The position numbers were made by a program, and so were the translations under genes. A DNA stretch of 64,000 nucleotides from Pseudobythopirellula maris. Lineage in GTDB: Bacteria > Planctomycetota > Planctomycetia > Pirellulales > Lacipirellulaceae. Below the pieces are notes generated by a model. The model saw only the letters and a list, made by a program, of their open reading frames with translations. It was not told the DNA's origin and ran no database searches. How positions within the stretch are numbered: position 1 is the stretch's first letter; each line of letters begins with the position of its first letter. Below are positions 7,558-50,459 of this stretch, piece by piece. Where the stretch lies: assembly GCF_007859945.1 (NCBI RefSeq), contig NZ_SJPQ01000002.1, positions 1,094,279-1,158,278 of the forward strand, given 5' to 3'.

Positions 7558-8003
7558 ATGAGGCTGTTGGCTAATAGCTAACGGGCGGCGGGTTGGTTGC
7601 GCGGCCAAATCTTTTAGAAAACTGGATCGCGGCGGTTGGCGAAAAAAGTGTTTCGCCCGCGATCACCCGAACGTGTCCCGGATTCACGCAGTGGCGCGGG
7701 GGCGTGGGGCGTGGGTTGTCGTTGGAAACGCACGGCGGCCGCGAAAAACGACAACCTGCGGCGCCCAATTATCTTTGTAGCGGGCGTTTCACCTAATTTC
7801 GACAATCGCTTTTGGGCCAAGCGCGCAGCAGCGATTCTTGGCCACTCGCCATTTTGTTCTAACGCGTTGTGCGGCCGCGGCTTGCGGCGTCAGAATCGCC
7901 GCGGAGAATCGACGTAAGTCGCGCCCATTTATTTTTGGGCCAAGTTTTCACGCCCTCGGCAGGCGCCCGCCGACGGGGCGCAAGGCCCCTCGGTCCGCTG
8001 GCG
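7558..8003. other. 446-base gap with one clear hairpin
   Basis: No gene is supported. The gap lies between two convergent genes, so it should contain their terminators. A perfect 10-base inverted repeat, GGTTGTCGTT at 7714-7723 and AACGACAACC at 7747-7756, is the only strong structure. Base composition is a little lower in GC than the flanks (A/T runs such as 'ATTTATTTTTGGG' near 7930). Confidence 0.5.
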
Positions 8004-8390
8004 TCATTCCGCGATCGCGGCGCAGATCACGTAGCAGCGCGGCGCGATCCGCTCACAACGCGTCACCTCGAAATCGAGCCGGCGGTCTTCCAGCCACAGG
8101 CGGCCGGTCTCGGTCGGGTAGAGCTCTTCGGCGTGAACAAACGAAACGCCGCTGCGCGAGATGTCCCGAGAGTGGACCACCGCGACGCGGTGCTCGTGAT
8201 GGGCTGTGGGGATCGGGTCGGTGATCTCGATCAATCCCTTGCCCGGCAGCCGCTTGCGGGCGAAGCGGCGGGCGTCGTTCTCGACCGTGGAGATGATCCC
8301 CTCGCGCGCGAGGTTCTCACGCCACTCGGTCGGCAGCTCGACGTGGCACGGCAGCTTGGCGATCGTTTCAGAGATCACTGGGTTAGGCAT
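8004..8390 (-). CDS. PilZ-domain c-di-GMP-binding protein
   Basis: 128 residues, a single PilZ domain. Both c-di-GMP contact motifs are present: RxxxR in 'RRFARKRL' (about residues 40-47) and DxSxxG in 'SRDISRSGVSF' about 30 residues later, the usual spacing. Such proteins bind the second messenger and pass the signal on to motility, polysaccharide or transcription partners. The ATG at 8390 is chosen over a GTG at 8399. It overlaps the last 16 bases of the HD-GYP gene, so the two are almost certainly cotranscribed and may be translationally coupled, pairing a c-di-GMP receptor with a c-di-GMP-degrading enzyme. Confidence 0.85.
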   Translation of the reverse strand: MPNPVISETIAKLPCHVELPTEWRENLAREGIISTVENDARRFARKRLPGKGLIEITDPIPTAHHEHRVAVVHSRDISRSGVSFVHAEELYPTETGRLWLEDRRLDFEVTRCERIAPRCYVICAAIAE

Positions 8391-9409
8391 TCGACCCACG
8401 CTTTCAGGCAGTCTTGATCAAACGCGGTTCCGGAGTCGCGGAGCATGATCTCTAACGTCACTTCGCGTGAGAGCGCCTTGCGGTAGGGGCGGTTGCTGGT
8501 GAGCGCCTCGTACACGTCGGCCACGGCGCAGATGCGGGCCCACGGGTGGATCTCGTCGCCGACCATGCGGGTCGGGTAGCCGCCGCCGTCCATCCGTTCG
8601 TGGTGCTGGTAGACCATCATCAGCTGGCCGTGGCTCAGGTCGTCGCGACGGCAGAGCTGTCGGAAGCCGGTGGTCGGGTGGCGGCGGATGATGGCGAACT
8701 CCTCGTCGCTCAGCCGCCCGGGCTTGGTCAGGATGCTGTCGGGGATCTCGAGCTTGCCCAAGTCGTGCATCAACGCGCCGGCCGTGATCTGCTGCAACTC
8801 GTCGGGGTCTTCGACGCCCAGCCGCGCGGCGAGCATCGTGCAGTAATACGAAACGTTGGCCGAGTGAGTGAACGTGTAATAATCGTGCTGCATCACGGCC
8901 AGCAGGTCGGTCTCCATCGCGTCGTCGCGCGAAACGAGGTCGGCGACTTGCACGGAGAGCCGGCGACACGCGTCGACCGTGGCGTCGTTGTCGCCCGCGG
9001 CGAACGACTCGCTCAGCACGCCGCGCAGCACGGTGTCGAGCGCCGCGAAACGGCGGGCGAGCGGGATCGACTCGTCGTCGAGCACCTCCGAGAGGTTGTC
9101 GCGCAGGTACGCTTGGTATTGGCCGTACTCCTCGCTGCGGACGAGCACCTTGGTGCGGCCCTGCTTGGCGAGATTCTGCAGCTGCTCGTACTCGAGCGGC
9201 AGGTGGGCGCCGCGGTAGAGCTTCTCCTGCCCCTCGCACTCGCCCTCCAGGTACAGCGCGCAATCCAGCTGGCTGTCGGGGCGCAGCGTGGCGATCGGAA
9301 CGGCAATGTATTCGCTAACGGCGGTGGCGGTGGTCACACTTGTTGTCGCTGTCGATGCCAGGCTAGTCGGCGCCGCGCTCGTTTGGCGACGCCCCGTACC
9401 CGTATACAT
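8375..9409 (-). CDS. HD-GYP domain cyclic-di-GMP phosphodiesterase
   Basis: 344 residues. The C-terminal 180 residues are a full HD-GYP domain: the metal-binding His/Asp pair in 'GALMHDLGKLEIPDSIL' (His215-Asp216), the 'HHERMDGGGYP' motif with the GYP triad, and 'CAVADVYEALTSNRPYR'. These residues are those needed for hydrolysis of c-di-GMP in characterised members. The first 150 residues carry no recognised sensor; after a Thr/Ser-rich start they contain 'LYLEGECEGQEKLYRGAHLP', which resembles N-terminal regions of other HD-GYP proteins. No membrane segment is seen, so it is probably cytoplasmic. The start at 9409 follows a non-protein-like upstream extension. Its partner, the PilZ gene, overlaps its 3' end. 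Confidence 0.9.
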   Translation of the reverse strand: MYTGTGRRQTSAAPTSLASTATTSVTTATAVSEYIAVPIATLRPDSQLDCALYLEGECEGQEKLYRGAHLPLEYEQLQNLAKQGRTKVLVRSEEYGQYQAYLRDNLSEVLDDESIPLARRFAALDTVLRGVLSESFAAGDNDATVDACRRLSVQVADLVSRDDAMETDLLAVMQHDYYTFTHSANVSYYCTMLAARLGVEDPDELQQITAGALMHDLGKLEIPDSILTKPGRLSDEEFAIIRRHPTTGFRQLCRRDDLSHGQLMMVYQHHERMDGGGYPTRMVGDEIHPWARICAVADVYEALTSNRPYRKALSREVTLEIMLRDSGTAFDQDCLKAWVECLTQ

Positions 9410-10071
9410 ACGACGCCTAATCGGGGGGGGGTAACCGATGCGTTGTGGTCTACCACCTTGGCCGCCCAGAGACCCCCAACCGAGAATGTCTGAACCGAAT
9501 GCGAGGAATGCGCTAGCGGCATGCCGCTTCATTGGGGGAGTCCAAGGCCTCTATCCCCCCCGCGTGCGGGGCTGACGACGACCGTCACTCGGCGTCGGGC
9601 TGGTCCGATTGCAGCAGCGGCGACGGCTGGCGGGGGCGCCGCGAAGCGGAAGCCCCCGAGCGCCACAGGCCAGGTCTCGCTGGCCCGGGGGCTTCCCTCA
9701 CGGGTGCGCCCCCGCCACCCCCCACTCTTCATGGGGAGCGCTGCTGAGGACGGCCGACAAACGATCCGGCGATACTTAGGCTGTCGGCGCTGCCGCCCGC
9801 GACGGGTGGCGGGGGCGCACCGCGAAGCGGAAGCCCCCGAGCGCCACAGGCCGGGTCTCGCTGGCTCGGGGGCTTCCCTCACGGGTGCGCCCCCGCCACC
9901 CCCCACTCTTCATGGGGAGCGCTGCGGAGGACGGCCGGCAAACGATCCGACGATACTTAGGCTGTCGGCGTTGCCGCCCGCGACGGGTGGCGGGGGCGCA
10001 CCGCGAAGCGGAAGCCCCCGAGCGCCACAGGCCAGGTCTCGCTGGCTACGGACTGATTCGCACCGCCGGCG
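9410..10071. other. 662-base gap holding the 181-base tandem repeats
   Basis: The gap contains the presumed promoter of the HD-GYP gene on its left side, a run of eight G near 9425, and a 2.3-copy tandem repeat with nested palindromes from 9628 to 10047 (listed separately). Open frames across the repeat are by-products of its GC content. Confidence 0.7.
9628..10047. repeat. 181-base tandem repeat, 2.3 copies, each with a nested palindrome
   Basis: Copies begin at 9628, 9807 and 9988 with the same sequence TGGCGGGGGCG. Copy 1 is 179 bases because it lacks two bases (AC) after GGGGGCGC; copy 2 is 181 bases; copy 3 stops after 60 bases, in the loop of its palindrome. Copies 1 and 2 differ at only a handful of positions. 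Within a unit the first 95 or so bases form an imperfect palindrome (9627-9719 and 9805-9900): GGTGGCGGGGGCGCACC opens it and GGTGCGCCCCCGCCACC closes it, with inner arms GGAAGCCCCCGAGC and GCTCGGGGGCTTCC. Confidence 0.9.
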
Positions 10072-11397
10072 CTATTCGATGCCCACTTCCCCCGCCCGCA
10101 GCAGCGGCGCCAGGCCGCAGTCGAGCAGGCGCCGCTCGGCGTCGGGTGTGAAGTCGCCGCCGTCGTCCACGCCGTTGGTCATCACACTGTAGACCCACCA
10201 GCCGGCTTGATGAGTCGCCGTCTCCCCCCGGCGCTCAGCGACGAGCGGCTCGCCGGAGAAGGGGTCGATCGTCGCTTCGGTGGGCAGGTCGATGTCGGCG
10301 AGCCCGGCGGGCGTTTCGCCGCGGGCCTCGGCTTGGGTGAGGGCGTTGAGGATGCGCAGGCAGCGGGCGTGGGCGGTGGCGCGATTGTGGGCGTAGTGAA
10401 ACGACTCGAGTGGGGGAAGCAACAAATCAATGGCCCTCGGCCATTCGTCGCCATCACGCTTTGTGGCCTCGAAGACGGAGCTCACCTCGTGCCACGGCCG
10501 CTTCGCAAGCGTTAGCTGGTGATCCAACTGGTCCAAGACTTGTTTCTTGGAGGGCCCCGCCAGCTTCATGAGCATGGGCGGTCCGCCCCCGAAACCCGCA
10601 GCGACCATGCTCAGCACTAAGGCCCGCTCCTGCTTGAGAGCACGGATGCGGTAGCTATCAACATCCAGAGCGTCCATCTCTCGATCGACTTCATCCGCCA
10701 TCGCGGTTGGTATCTGCCCGTAGCGCATCACACGATTCATCGCACTGATTGCGATGTTTTGGTAGGCGATGCTCGTCAAGCTGCCGATGACACAAGGCTC
10801 ATCGCGTGTCAGCCGGGCGAAGCGGAGGCCGTCGAGCGCAGCCGCGGCTGCGGCGTCGTGCTCGCCCCGCGCCAAGTGGTGGTTGACCAGGGCGTCGAGG
10901 ATCCTGATCGCGATGCGGGCACGATAGCCCGATTCGAGGTTCATACCGATGTCGAGGTTGGGCGTGATATACGCGTACCGCTCCTGCCGGGCGGCGACTC
11001 TCACCGCGTCGACTGCCTCGGCGTGGTCCGCGAACAAGGTCGCGAAGGCTTCGCTTTGTTCATCGGTCAGCGGCTCGCCCCGCGCGACGCGCTCCGCTGC
11101 TTCCTCCAGCAGGTCGGGGTGGGGCTGGCCGTAGGCGACTTGGTCGAAAGCTTTCAGCAGCGGCCAGGCGGCGGCGATCGTCGCCGCCGCGTTCTCCTCG
11201 GCCGGCATCGGCTCTGGCCGGATGTCGGCGAGAGTCACCGGATCGCCCGCCGCGCGGATCGCGGCGAGTCGGCGCTCCACTTTCCACCAACCCCAGAGGG
11301 CGTAGGCGGGGATCACCGCCACCAGCCCCAGCGCGAAGTAGCGCAGCCGCAAGCGGCGGCGGGGACGCGGCGGGGATGCGGGCGAGGTGGCGGGCAT
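10072..11397 (-). CDS. Membrane-anchored protein of unknown function (441 aa)
   Basis: No known family was recognised. A basic N-terminus ('PRPRRRLRLR') and one hydrophobic segment 'YFALGLVAVIPAYALWGWW' (about residues 20-38) anchor the protein. The remainder is helical and Ala-rich and is likely outside the cytoplasm. The part around 'YRARIAIRILDALVNHHLAR' and 'EHDAAAAAALDGLRFARLTR' suggests TPR-like helix pairs. The C-terminal 'IDPFSGEPLVAERRG' resembles the 'DPFsGkPL' segment found in many planctomycete exported proteins, which I recall from that phylum but cannot name. ATG at 11397 gives a plausible anchor; the earlier start adds 14 residues. It is transcribed away from dapL. Confidence 0.7.
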   Translation of the reverse strand: MPATSPASPPRPRRRLRLRYFALGLVAVIPAYALWGWWKVERRLAAIRAAGDPVTLADIRPEPMPAEENAAATIAAAWPLLKAFDQVAYGQPHPDLLEEAAERVARGEPLTDEQSEAFATLFADHAEAVDAVRVAARQERYAYITPNLDIGMNLESGYRARIAIRILDALVNHHLARGEHDAAAAAALDGLRFARLTRDEPCVIGSLTSIAYQNIAISAMNRVMRYGQIPTAMADEVDREMDALDVDSYRIRALKQERALVLSMVAAGFGGGPPMLMKLAGPSKKQVLDQLDHQLTLAKRPWHEVSSVFEATKRDGDEWPRAIDLLLPPLESFHYAHNRATAHARCLRILNALTQAEARGETPAGLADIDLPTEATIDPFSGEPLVAERRGETATHQAGWWVYSVMTNGVDDGGDFTPDAERRLLDCGLAPLLRAGEVGIE

Positions 11398-48205: not shown

Positions 48206-48313
48206 CGAGAGAATCCGCGAGGCGAGCAGGCAGGAGACGCAGCAGGGGAGGGGCGGCCGGTAAGACCGGGCCCCCCAAGATAGGTTCGCGCGGCCCCAAG
48301 GTCGATGCGCCGG

Positions 48314-48339
48314 GGCGAGCCGGTGGCGTAAGCCACCGG
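48314..48339 (+). repeat. Dispersed palindromic repeat, family A, copy 3
   Basis: GGCGAGCCGGTGGCGTAAGC followed by CACCGG; the inner CCGGTGGC-GTAA-GCCACCGG is a perfect hairpin. With copy 4, 42 bases away in the opposite orientation, it can form a second, longer stem. Confidence 0.8.
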
Positions 48340-48380
48340 AGTTGCTTGAAGTGGCGAGCGGTAACCTTGCGCAAAGAACC

Positions 48381-48407
48381 CCGGGGGCTTACGCCCGCCG
48401 GCTCGCC
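48381..48407 (-). repeat. Dispersed palindromic repeat, family A, copy 4
   Basis: Read on the minus strand: GGCGAGCCGGCGGGCGTAAG followed by CCCCCGG, the same as copy 2 at 43432. It ends 10 bases before the stop codon of the GH127 gene. Confidence 0.8.
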
Positions 48408-48416
48408 GTACTCGGC

Positions 48417-50459
48417 TTACTCGGCGTTCTTGGGGCTTTTGATGGGCTCCGCGGCGCCGGCTTTCTCGGCGATCCAGACCGCCATCTCCCCTTTGCCGCG
48501 GTGCGCCCAGGCGTAGTAGGGGATCGCCGCGTAGCTGGCTTCTTGCGGGTCGCCATCGACCACGCGCTGGCCCGTCACGCGGATCGTCTCCACGCCGCCG
48601 AGCAGGTCGGCCTGGAACTCGGTGGAGAACTCGGCGCCGGCGGGGACAACGAGTCCGGCCACGTCGCCCTCCGGCGCGTCGGGGTGCTCGACGCAGTAGA
48701 CCAGCGGCCCGCGCTGCAGCGCGACACGGCCGCGGTCGGCCTCGACGCGGTGGTGCGCCGAGACGCGCCGAACCGGCATCGGCAGCGTGAGCACGAGCGT
48801 GTCGCCGTCGGCCCATTCGCGGTCGACGACCAGGTAGCCGTGCCGGTCGATCGCGTCGGTAACGGGTCGCGGCTCGGCGTCGCCGACCGCGAACGTCGCC
48901 GCCGGGGCGTCTTCGTCCGCGAACCGGTAGAGGTCGCCCGGCATGGCGTTGTTGCGGGCCCAGCCCGGCACGCGGACCTTGAGCGCCACGCACCGCGGGG
49001 CGTCGAGACCCGACAACGCGATCTCGACCCGGCCGTCCCAGGGGTAATTGGTCCGCTGCTCGACCTTGATCTCCGCGTCGCGGATCGCGACGTCCGCCTC
49101 GCCACGGACGAACAGGTTGACGTACAAGTCGTCGTCTTTAGCGGCGTAGGCGTAGCCGGGGATCGCCGGCACGAACCGGCAAACGTTCGTCGGGCAGCAC
49201 GAGCAATCGAACCACGGGCTCCGCTCGTGCGAGCCGTCCGACGAGAGCGGGTTGGGGTAGAAGAACCGCTCGCCGTCCAAGGAGACGCCCGACAGCATGC
49301 CGTTGTAGAGCACCTTCTCGAGCACGTCGATGTACTTGGCGTCGCCGTGCAGCAGGAACATGCGGTGGTTCCAATAGCACTGGGCGATCGCGGCGCAGGT
49401 CTCGTTGTAGGCCGTCAGGTTGGGCAGCTCGTAGCGCCGCCCGAACGCCTCGCCGTGGCCCGTGGCGCCGACGCCGCCGGTTAGGTACATCTTGGTCCCG
49501 ACCACGTCACGCCACAGCCGGTCGACGGCCCGCTCGTAGTCTTCGTCGCCGCTGAGCACCGCCACGTCGGTCATCGCCGCGTACATGTAGCCGGCCCGCA
49601 CGGCGTGGCCGACGGCCTCGTCCTGGTCAACGACCGGCTTGTCGTCTTGGCTGTAGGGCCCCCAATTCTTGTCGCGGTCTTTGGTCGCGCGGCCGCGGAG
49701 GTCGAGGAACCATTTGGCGAGGTCGAGGTAACGCTTATCCCCTGTCACCCGGTAGATTTTCACTAGGCCGAGCTCGACCTCCTGGTGGCCGGGGGGCAGC
49801 TCAATGCCCCCCTCGTGGAACGTCTCGAGAACGTGCTCGGCGCTCTTCTTCGAGACGTCGAGCAGCCCCGGCTTGCCGGTCGCCTGCCAGTGGGCGGCGG
49901 CCGCCTCGTACATGTGCCCGAGGTTGTAGAGCTGGTGCCCCCAGTCGATGCGGCTCCACGGCTCTCCCTCGGTGAAGCAGCAGATTCCTTGCTCGATGGG
50001 CGGGGCTTTCATGCCGGCCGTGTGGTACGTGTACAGGTAGCCGTTCGGCTCTTGGGCCGCCGCGTACAACTCGATCAGGCCGTCGAGGTACGACTCGAGC
50101 TTGGAGTCGCGGTCGGTCATCAGGCTGTAAGCGGCGCCCTCGAGCACCTTGCTCACGTCGCTGTCGTTAAAGCCGTACGCGCCGACCCACTCGGCGTCGC
50201 TCTCGCCCGAGGCGACGCGGAAGTTCTCCATCCGGCCGTACTCTTCGCACTTGTCGAAGCAATAGGGGATCGTCTTCTCACGGTTCGTGTCGATCCGCGG
50301 CCGCCAGAAGTCGTCCAAGAACCGCACCGAGGGTCCCGGCACGGGGGCGATAGGGTAATCGCTCGCCATGGCGCCTGGCGCCTGGGCGTCGGATTGCAGC
50401 GGGGCGGACAAGACCATCAACAGCAGCGCGAAAGCGCGGCGAGTTCGGGGCTTAAGCAT
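48417..50459 (-). CDS. Secreted GH127-family glycosidase (beta-L-arabinofuranosidase type, DUF1680)
   Basis: 680 residues. Signal peptide 'RRAFALLLMVLSAPLQSDAQ'. The family GH127 start 'VRFLDDFWRPRIDTNREKTIP' is followed by the (alpha/alpha)6 barrel with 'NGYLYTYHT', 'LYNLGHMYEAAAAHW', 'AVGHAVRAGYMYAA' and 'MYLTGGVGATGHGEAFG'. The zinc and nucleophile residues of characterised GH127 enzymes, a Glu-x-Cys and a later Cys-Cys, are in 'NLTAYNETCAAIA' (about 345-357) and 'FDCSCCPTNVCR' (about 413-424). It likely releases L-arabinofuranose or a related sugar from glycans outside the cytoplasm. No carbohydrate-binding module is added. ATG 50459 sets the signal peptide at the start. It stands alone. 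Confidence 0.92.
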   Translation of the reverse strand: MLKPRTRRAFALLLMVLSAPLQSDAQAPGAMASDYPIAPVPGPSVRFLDDFWRPRIDTNREKTIPYCFDKCEEYGRMENFRVASGESDAEWVGAYGFNDSDVSKVLEGAAYSLMTDRDSKLESYLDGLIELYAAAQEPNGYLYTYHTAGMKAPPIEQGICCFTEGEPWSRIDWGHQLYNLGHMYEAAAAHWQATGKPGLLDVSKKSAEHVLETFHEGGIELPPGHQEVELGLVKIYRVTGDKRYLDLAKWFLDLRGRATKDRDKNWGPYSQDDKPVVDQDEAVGHAVRAGYMYAAMTDVAVLSGDEDYERAVDRLWRDVVGTKMYLTGGVGATGHGEAFGRRYELPNLTAYNETCAAIAQCYWNHRMFLLHGDAKYIDVLEKVLYNGMLSGVSLDGERFFYPNPLSSDGSHERSPWFDCSCCPTNVCRFVPAIPGYAYAAKDDDLYVNLFVRGEADVAIRDAEIKVEQRTNYPWDGRVEIALSGLDAPRCVALKVRVPGWARNNAMPGDLYRFADEDAPAATFAVGDAEPRPVTDAIDRHGYLVVDREWADGDTLVLTLPMPVRRVSAHHRVEADRGRVALQRGPLVYCVEHPDAPEGDVAGLVVPAGAEFSTEFQADLLGGVETIRVTGQRVVDGDPQEASYAAIPYYAWAHRGKGEMAVWIAEKAGAAEPIKSPKNAE

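Follow-up and report, generated by a model that had tools for sequence, protein, structure and literature searches.

A tandem palindrome array in Pseudobythopirellula maris, very probably a REPIN array of a REPIN-RAYT system

The array and its neighbours

The stretch of DNA analysed here (the window) covers 64,000 nucleotides of the planctomycete Pseudobythopirellula maris. Between two genes read from the same strand lies an array of palindromic elements and spacers (Table 1). The names REPIN and REP, used for these elements from the outset, anticipate the reading that is argued for below.

Table 1. The array, its parts and the genes beside it, in window coordinates
Feature	Position	Strand	Evidence
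HD-GYP-type HD-domain gene, downstream of the array	8375..9337	-	HD_5, 107.6 bits
181-bp tandem array: two REPINs, spacers, one partial copy	9620..10047	.	TRF, unit comparison
REPIN copy 1, 96 bp, tag mutated to GGCTGGC, left REP 2 nt short	9625..9720	+	covariance model, 68.1 bits
Spacer, unit 1	9721..9803	.	unit comparison
REPIN copy 2, intact, 98 bp	9804..9901	+	covariance model, 89.4 bits
Left REP of copy 2, tag GTGG, stem CGGGGGC/GCCCCCG	9804..9839	+	folding
Right REP of copy 2, inverted	9867..9901	-	folding
Spacer, unit 2	9902..9984	.	unit comparison
Partial copy: left REP and whole loop, without right REP	9985..10047	+	unit comparison
Gene upstream of the array, 426-aa protein, no Pfam match	10072..11352	-	ORF call, Pfam

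Tandem Repeats Finder (TRF) gives the array a period of 181, 2.4 copies, 95% matches and a score of 793; the remaining 14 rows for the window score about 50-77. Thus, the 181-base tandem duplication of the original prediction is real, with two full copies and a third that is incomplete. Units 1 and 2 differ by seven substitutions and one 2-nt gap over 181 positions, and units 2 and 3 at 1 of 68. To call the copies almost identical was therefore slightly generous, and the duplication, described as recent, is fairly but not extremely so. The palindrome itself was correctly recognised, its length of 95 bases less so, since copy 2 measures 98 bp and copy 1 measures 96 bp. The third copy does stop inside the palindrome's loop, as had been noticed; its end (10047) corresponds to REPIN position 63, the final loop base before the right-hand REP. 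Among partial copies in the genome, an end at this border is clear for the window copy only; those at C1:749019 and C1:848982 are too decayed for their ends to be read, and that at C1:1684047 is a mutated full copy.

A covariance-model scan of the window gives a clear match at this array only. An imperfect palindrome at 48308-48417 is weakly similar to the model (E 0.019).

Between the upstream gene's stop codon and the array lie 24 bp, and about 280 bp separate the array from the start of the HD-GYP gene. This position does not suit the proposal that the palindrome forms an RNA structure at the HD-GYP promoter. Nor does the search bearing on that proposal, which found no sigma-70-like site. 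Likewise, no REPIN was found near HD-GYP homologues at eight loci of four relatives and one paralogue in the same genome, all so distant (at most 44% identical) that the comparison is no empty-site test.

Structure, dispersal and placement of the palindrome

The outer arms of copy 2 are 18 bp long and fully complementary; the inner arms are 14 bp. Folded as single-stranded DNA, the palindrome reaches -50.7 kcal/mol, against a mean of -27.7 for shuffled sequences (z -7.7; 0 of 200 shuffles as low). Two folds are available to it. Each arm can fold on itself to give a REP hairpin with the stem CGGGGGC/GCCCCCG and GTGG 5' of that stem, or both arms can pair jointly as one long hairpin. A GT[AG]G tag 5' of a palindrome is, of course, what characterises a REP, and in the P. 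maris genome (G000) the tag is GTGG.

The original prediction had proposed searching the whole genome for the palindrome, with the absence of other copies to count against a mobile element. Other copies were found, many of them already in a search with the whole array. With strands merged, the palindrome occurs at 31 places, so that there are many repeats per genome, as expected of REPs: 26 are full-length, one is 115 bp and four, including the third copy of the window, are partial. At the 28 places outside the array, flanking sequences are mostly unrelated beyond GGGTGGC and GCCACCC. An alignment of 26 copies from this genome shows sharp GGGTGGC...GCCACCC ends, arms that are fixed and a loop, about 27 nt long, that varies freely. 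A pattern for the left REP matches the genome 23 times, 20 of these in doublets, and one for the right REP 22 times, all 22 in doublets, with 0 matches for the reversed-pattern control in either case. Doublets (27) outnumber partial copies (4); the unit is two inverted REPs, with singlets rarer, as in a REPIN.

Three tandem REPIN arrays are found in this genome, with periods of 181, 148 and 254 bp. At the last of these (L023:2387-4581, near 1210 kb of contig C2) two REPINs stand in tandem and a third lies about 1.8 kb away; the flanks common to all three suggest a larger duplication.

The copies are not scattered evenly with respect to genes. All 21 independent sites in the P. maris genome are intergenic, against 10.2% of 98-bp window placements (p ~1e-21). 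For this count arrays were merged, and the 115-bp copy, three partial ones and the REPIN upstream of the RAYT gene were set aside. At 15 of the 16 sites no more than 120 bp from a gene, it is a 3' end that lies closest, where 38% would be expected from window placements (p ~5e-6). For sites no more than 30 bp from a gene end, a 3' end is the neighbour in 8 of 8 cases in this genome and in 14 of 16 in two sister genomes (G041 and G042). Among the matches listed for these two, 31 of 40 places are extragenic and 9 overlap or sit within called ORFs; the gene caller is simple, codon-based and crude, and of limited sensitivity, as its failure to call the RAYT gene shows.

The RAYT gene and its relatives

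A Y1_Tnp search of the P. maris genome returns four genes. One of these (L021:3708-4253), termed the RAYT here, is preceded by one REPIN and followed by three, the latter in a 148-bp tandem. It is a single-copy gene; elsewhere in the genome its closest homologues share 35% and 26% identity with it. The RAYT and the window are on different contigs, C1 and C2 respectively, which leaves the distance between them undefined.

The RAYT passes the NCBIfam model REP_Tyr_transpos (NF047646) by a narrow margin (84.3 bits, cut-off 80), and it passes Pfam Y1_Tnp (26.7, cut-off 23). Four of 4 further homologues of the same lineage also pass NF047646 (84.7-89 bits). The residues H57, H59, Y136 and N140 are invariant in all 19 aligned homologues, which gives the HuH motif, the catalytic tyrosine and the YIxxNP context. 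That alignment (A4) holds 19 of 24 sequences, with L067, L080, L072, L075 and L079 omitted for stop-codon errors or for short or doubtful frames. A structure model (pLDDT 89, pTM 0.87) has as its top PDB match 4er8, the TnpA_REP protein with a REP hairpin (Z 16.9, rmsd 2.2, 141 aligned; TM 0.69/0.76); the next match scores 12.0.

Two other assignments were considered and rejected. As an IS200/IS605 transposase, the protein scores 19.9 bits with NCBIfam transpos_IS200, far below the cut-off of 55. As a member of class 3 TnpA_Y1, reported from Planctomycetes (PMC6006769), it should carry NHVH, W[TA], YVxxEQ and a CnGA foot; it has NHAH, WQ, YIHLNP and GTGG. Its motifs correspond exactly to none of that survey's subclasses.

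A second RAYT gene (L045:2536-3081, near 1789 kb of contig C1) scores 187.5 bits with NF047646 and has GTAGGGTG-type inverted repeats on either side. This gene and its GTAGGGTG repeats apparently make up a further REP system of the P. maris genome, tagged with GTAG and separate from the first.

A RAYT homologue is present in 34 of the 43 genomes of the family, that of P. maris, the only genome of its genus, being counted. REPIN matches occur in at least 8 of the 43 by DNA comparison and in at least 8 by covariance model, the two sets being partly different and both counts lower bounds. Of the 19 named relatives, 17 are of planctomycete type, one is from Zixiibacteriota and one is unclassified; the Sedimentisphaerales among them we take to belong to the planctomycete phylum.

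The pairing of RAYT and palindrome recurs in the relatives. The homologues of G041 and G042 (59 and 62% identical) are bracketed by REPINs of the window type. Those of G002, G040, G009, L065 and L066 have flanking ends that are palindromic or inverted; the stems are different, but the ends start with GGGTGGC or GGGTGCC. The RAYT of L049 (G002) has one inverted REP on each side, no full REPIN being seen there, and resembles a small insertion sequence.

Over 29 RAYT loci (the fragments L082 and L083 were excluded, as were weaker hits that had no locus), GGGTG[GC]C stands upstream at 24, its complement downstream at 22 and both at 20; at 9 the tag is missing on one or both sides. These loci are mutually related and so are not independent trials. 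Within 350 bp upstream, GGGTGGC is the most frequent 7-mer (21 of 29 loci), and downstream it is GCCACCC (18 of 29 loci; 26 of the 29 have more than 300 bp of flank). At 700-1050 bp from the genes no 7-mer exceeds 9, and neither tag is in the top list.

REPINs of the two sister genomes share the layout of those in P. maris, mostly with GTGC instead of GTGG. Position 16 is mostly T rather than A, and the opposite arm is usually matched. Such matched changes can mean that the hairpin is constrained, or that two ends read by one RAYT changed in parallel. In three G042 copies a pair inside the left REP is altered on both sides, with loss of the long-hairpin pair. These copies favour the single-REP fold and may derive from one event. 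The alignment used here (A3) takes in 26 of the 31 places in P. maris and 31 of the 40 in G041 and G042, partial or poorly bounded copies having been dropped. In a covariation control, the number of pairs changed on both sides shows no excess (2, against a shuffle mean of 2.2), because only two pairs vary, and these between genera; double-change cells and the covariation score lie above those of the shuffles (0 of 500).

A REPIN-RAYT system and its alternatives

The palindromes are dispersed, a RAYT is flanked by them and relatives show the same pairing; the window array is therefore very probably a REPIN array of a REPIN-RAYT system, dispersed by the RAYT and later amplified in tandem. The suggestion that the palindrome is a mobile, non-coding element is thus well supported by intergenic copies and a cognate transposase. 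Here, a REPIN would be two REPs, each with GTGG and a CGGGGGC/GCCCCCG stem, inverted around a free loop. The single-copy RAYT would recognise single-stranded REPs and would copy or move REPINs to intergenic DNA, mostly right behind stop codons. At the window site, one REPIN with its flank would later have been amplified to the 181-bp array, plausibly by slippage or by unequal recombination between REP copies. Dispersal by the RAYT seems the most likely route because TnpA_REP of E. coli, which is close kin to the IS200/IS605 transposases, can process single-stranded REPs in vitro (PMC8266576). In this one genome of the genus, neither an excision, an empty site nor a transposition event was seen.

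An alternative is that the palindrome is an RNA or DNA element that the host maintains under selection, such as an mRNA 3'-end hairpin, a terminator or a nucleoid site, with the RAYT of minor importance today. The crowding of sites behind stop codons fits this reading, as does the maintenance of hairpin pairing through matched changes between genera. However, 3' placement may only mirror where insertion is tolerated, the loops vary freely, and in relatives the same hairpins stand beside RAYT genes. Further, the array lacks a T-run terminator, the sole intrinsic-terminator hit (9324-9337, + strand) lying outside it, and no window match to Rfam exceeds its gathering score. (A scan of the RAYT locus, L021, gave one sub-threshold match, to ftsZ-DE, at 30.2 bits against 72.2 and away from the elements.) Host maintenance as the principal account is accordingly doubtful, if worth keeping in mind; the two roles can, of course, coexist. 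In E. coli, REPs no more than 15 nt from a stop codon reportedly lower translation (PMC12306157). The window array, at 24 nt, lies beyond that range; it may affect the upstream mRNA at its 3' end.

Replication slippage that duplicated a palindrome with its flank, and no mobile element, would account for a head-to-tail repeat that takes in a non-palindromic spacer and for a third copy that stops at the loop. It could account for the tandem step only. With 28 further places, mostly in unrelated flanks, and a cognate transposase, a purely local duplication is ruled out as the full explanation, and a slippage artefact is very improbable. A classical MITE of a cut-and-paste insertion sequence, which would also be short, non-coding, dispersed and bounded by terminal inverted repeats, is just as hard to credit, since the gene found between these ends encodes a Y1 HuH transposase of the TnpA_REP type and each arm folds alone, with a tag 5' of each stem.

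The REPIN-RAYT reading has close precedents. In Pseudomonas fluorescens SBW25, inverted REP doublets with a variable loop are dispersed between genes, a single-copy RAYT has the same REPs on its flanks, and REPINs form tandem arrays that include their flanks (PMC3116915), all as found here. The largest SBW25 array holds four REPINs and an extra REP; for that genome hairpin and clover folds were proposed, and clusters were suggested to form by a second, separate mechanism (PMC3116915). P. maris differs from it in sequence, in having tens rather than hundreds of copies and in a RAYT from another lineage. With the TnpA_REP/REP system of E. coli (4er8; PMC8266576) it shares the HuH-Y1 fold, the catalytic residues and a tag before the REP stem, although the proteins are only about 17% identical (structural alignment) and GTGG here lies inside a longer GGGTGGC. 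GTAG-tagged repeats, which occur in the PVC superphylum and with GTGG in O. terrae, are likewise tagged palindromes that reiterate in tandem with their flanks (PMC3733652); the portion of that survey considered here describes no such planctomycete family.

The type of system is thus known, and what is new is a member in a little-studied bacterial group. General surveys mention Planctomycetes (PMC3733652, PMC6006769), and in the parts of this literature covered, no description of the present family was found. The system offers a complete REPIN-RAYT pair outside the Proteobacteria, with comparable, homologous pairs in sister genera. There, tag and stem have changed together, which provides natural variants for studying RAYT/REP co-evolution and the importance of the REPIN fold.

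More tentatively, these genes might represent a planctomycete-centred RAYT lineage with its own REP superfamily, in which the GGGTGGC tag is fixed, the stems diverge and the transposase is usually bracketed by tags. Some units might still move whole, since a RAYT between inverted tags (20 of 29) has the layout expected of the presumed IS200-like ancestor of REPINs. Both REPIN folds may be constrained, given the swapped left-REP pair that breaks the long hairpin in three G042 copies.

A second dispersed repeat, of about 110-180 bp, was seen at window 7755-7869 (+ strand), at L021:3318-3500 and in L144. It has at least 40 matches in the P. maris genome and a lone 24-bp match in 42 relatives. Several REPINs and two RAYT genes have it immediately on their 5' side, and it is possibly a hot spot for insertion.
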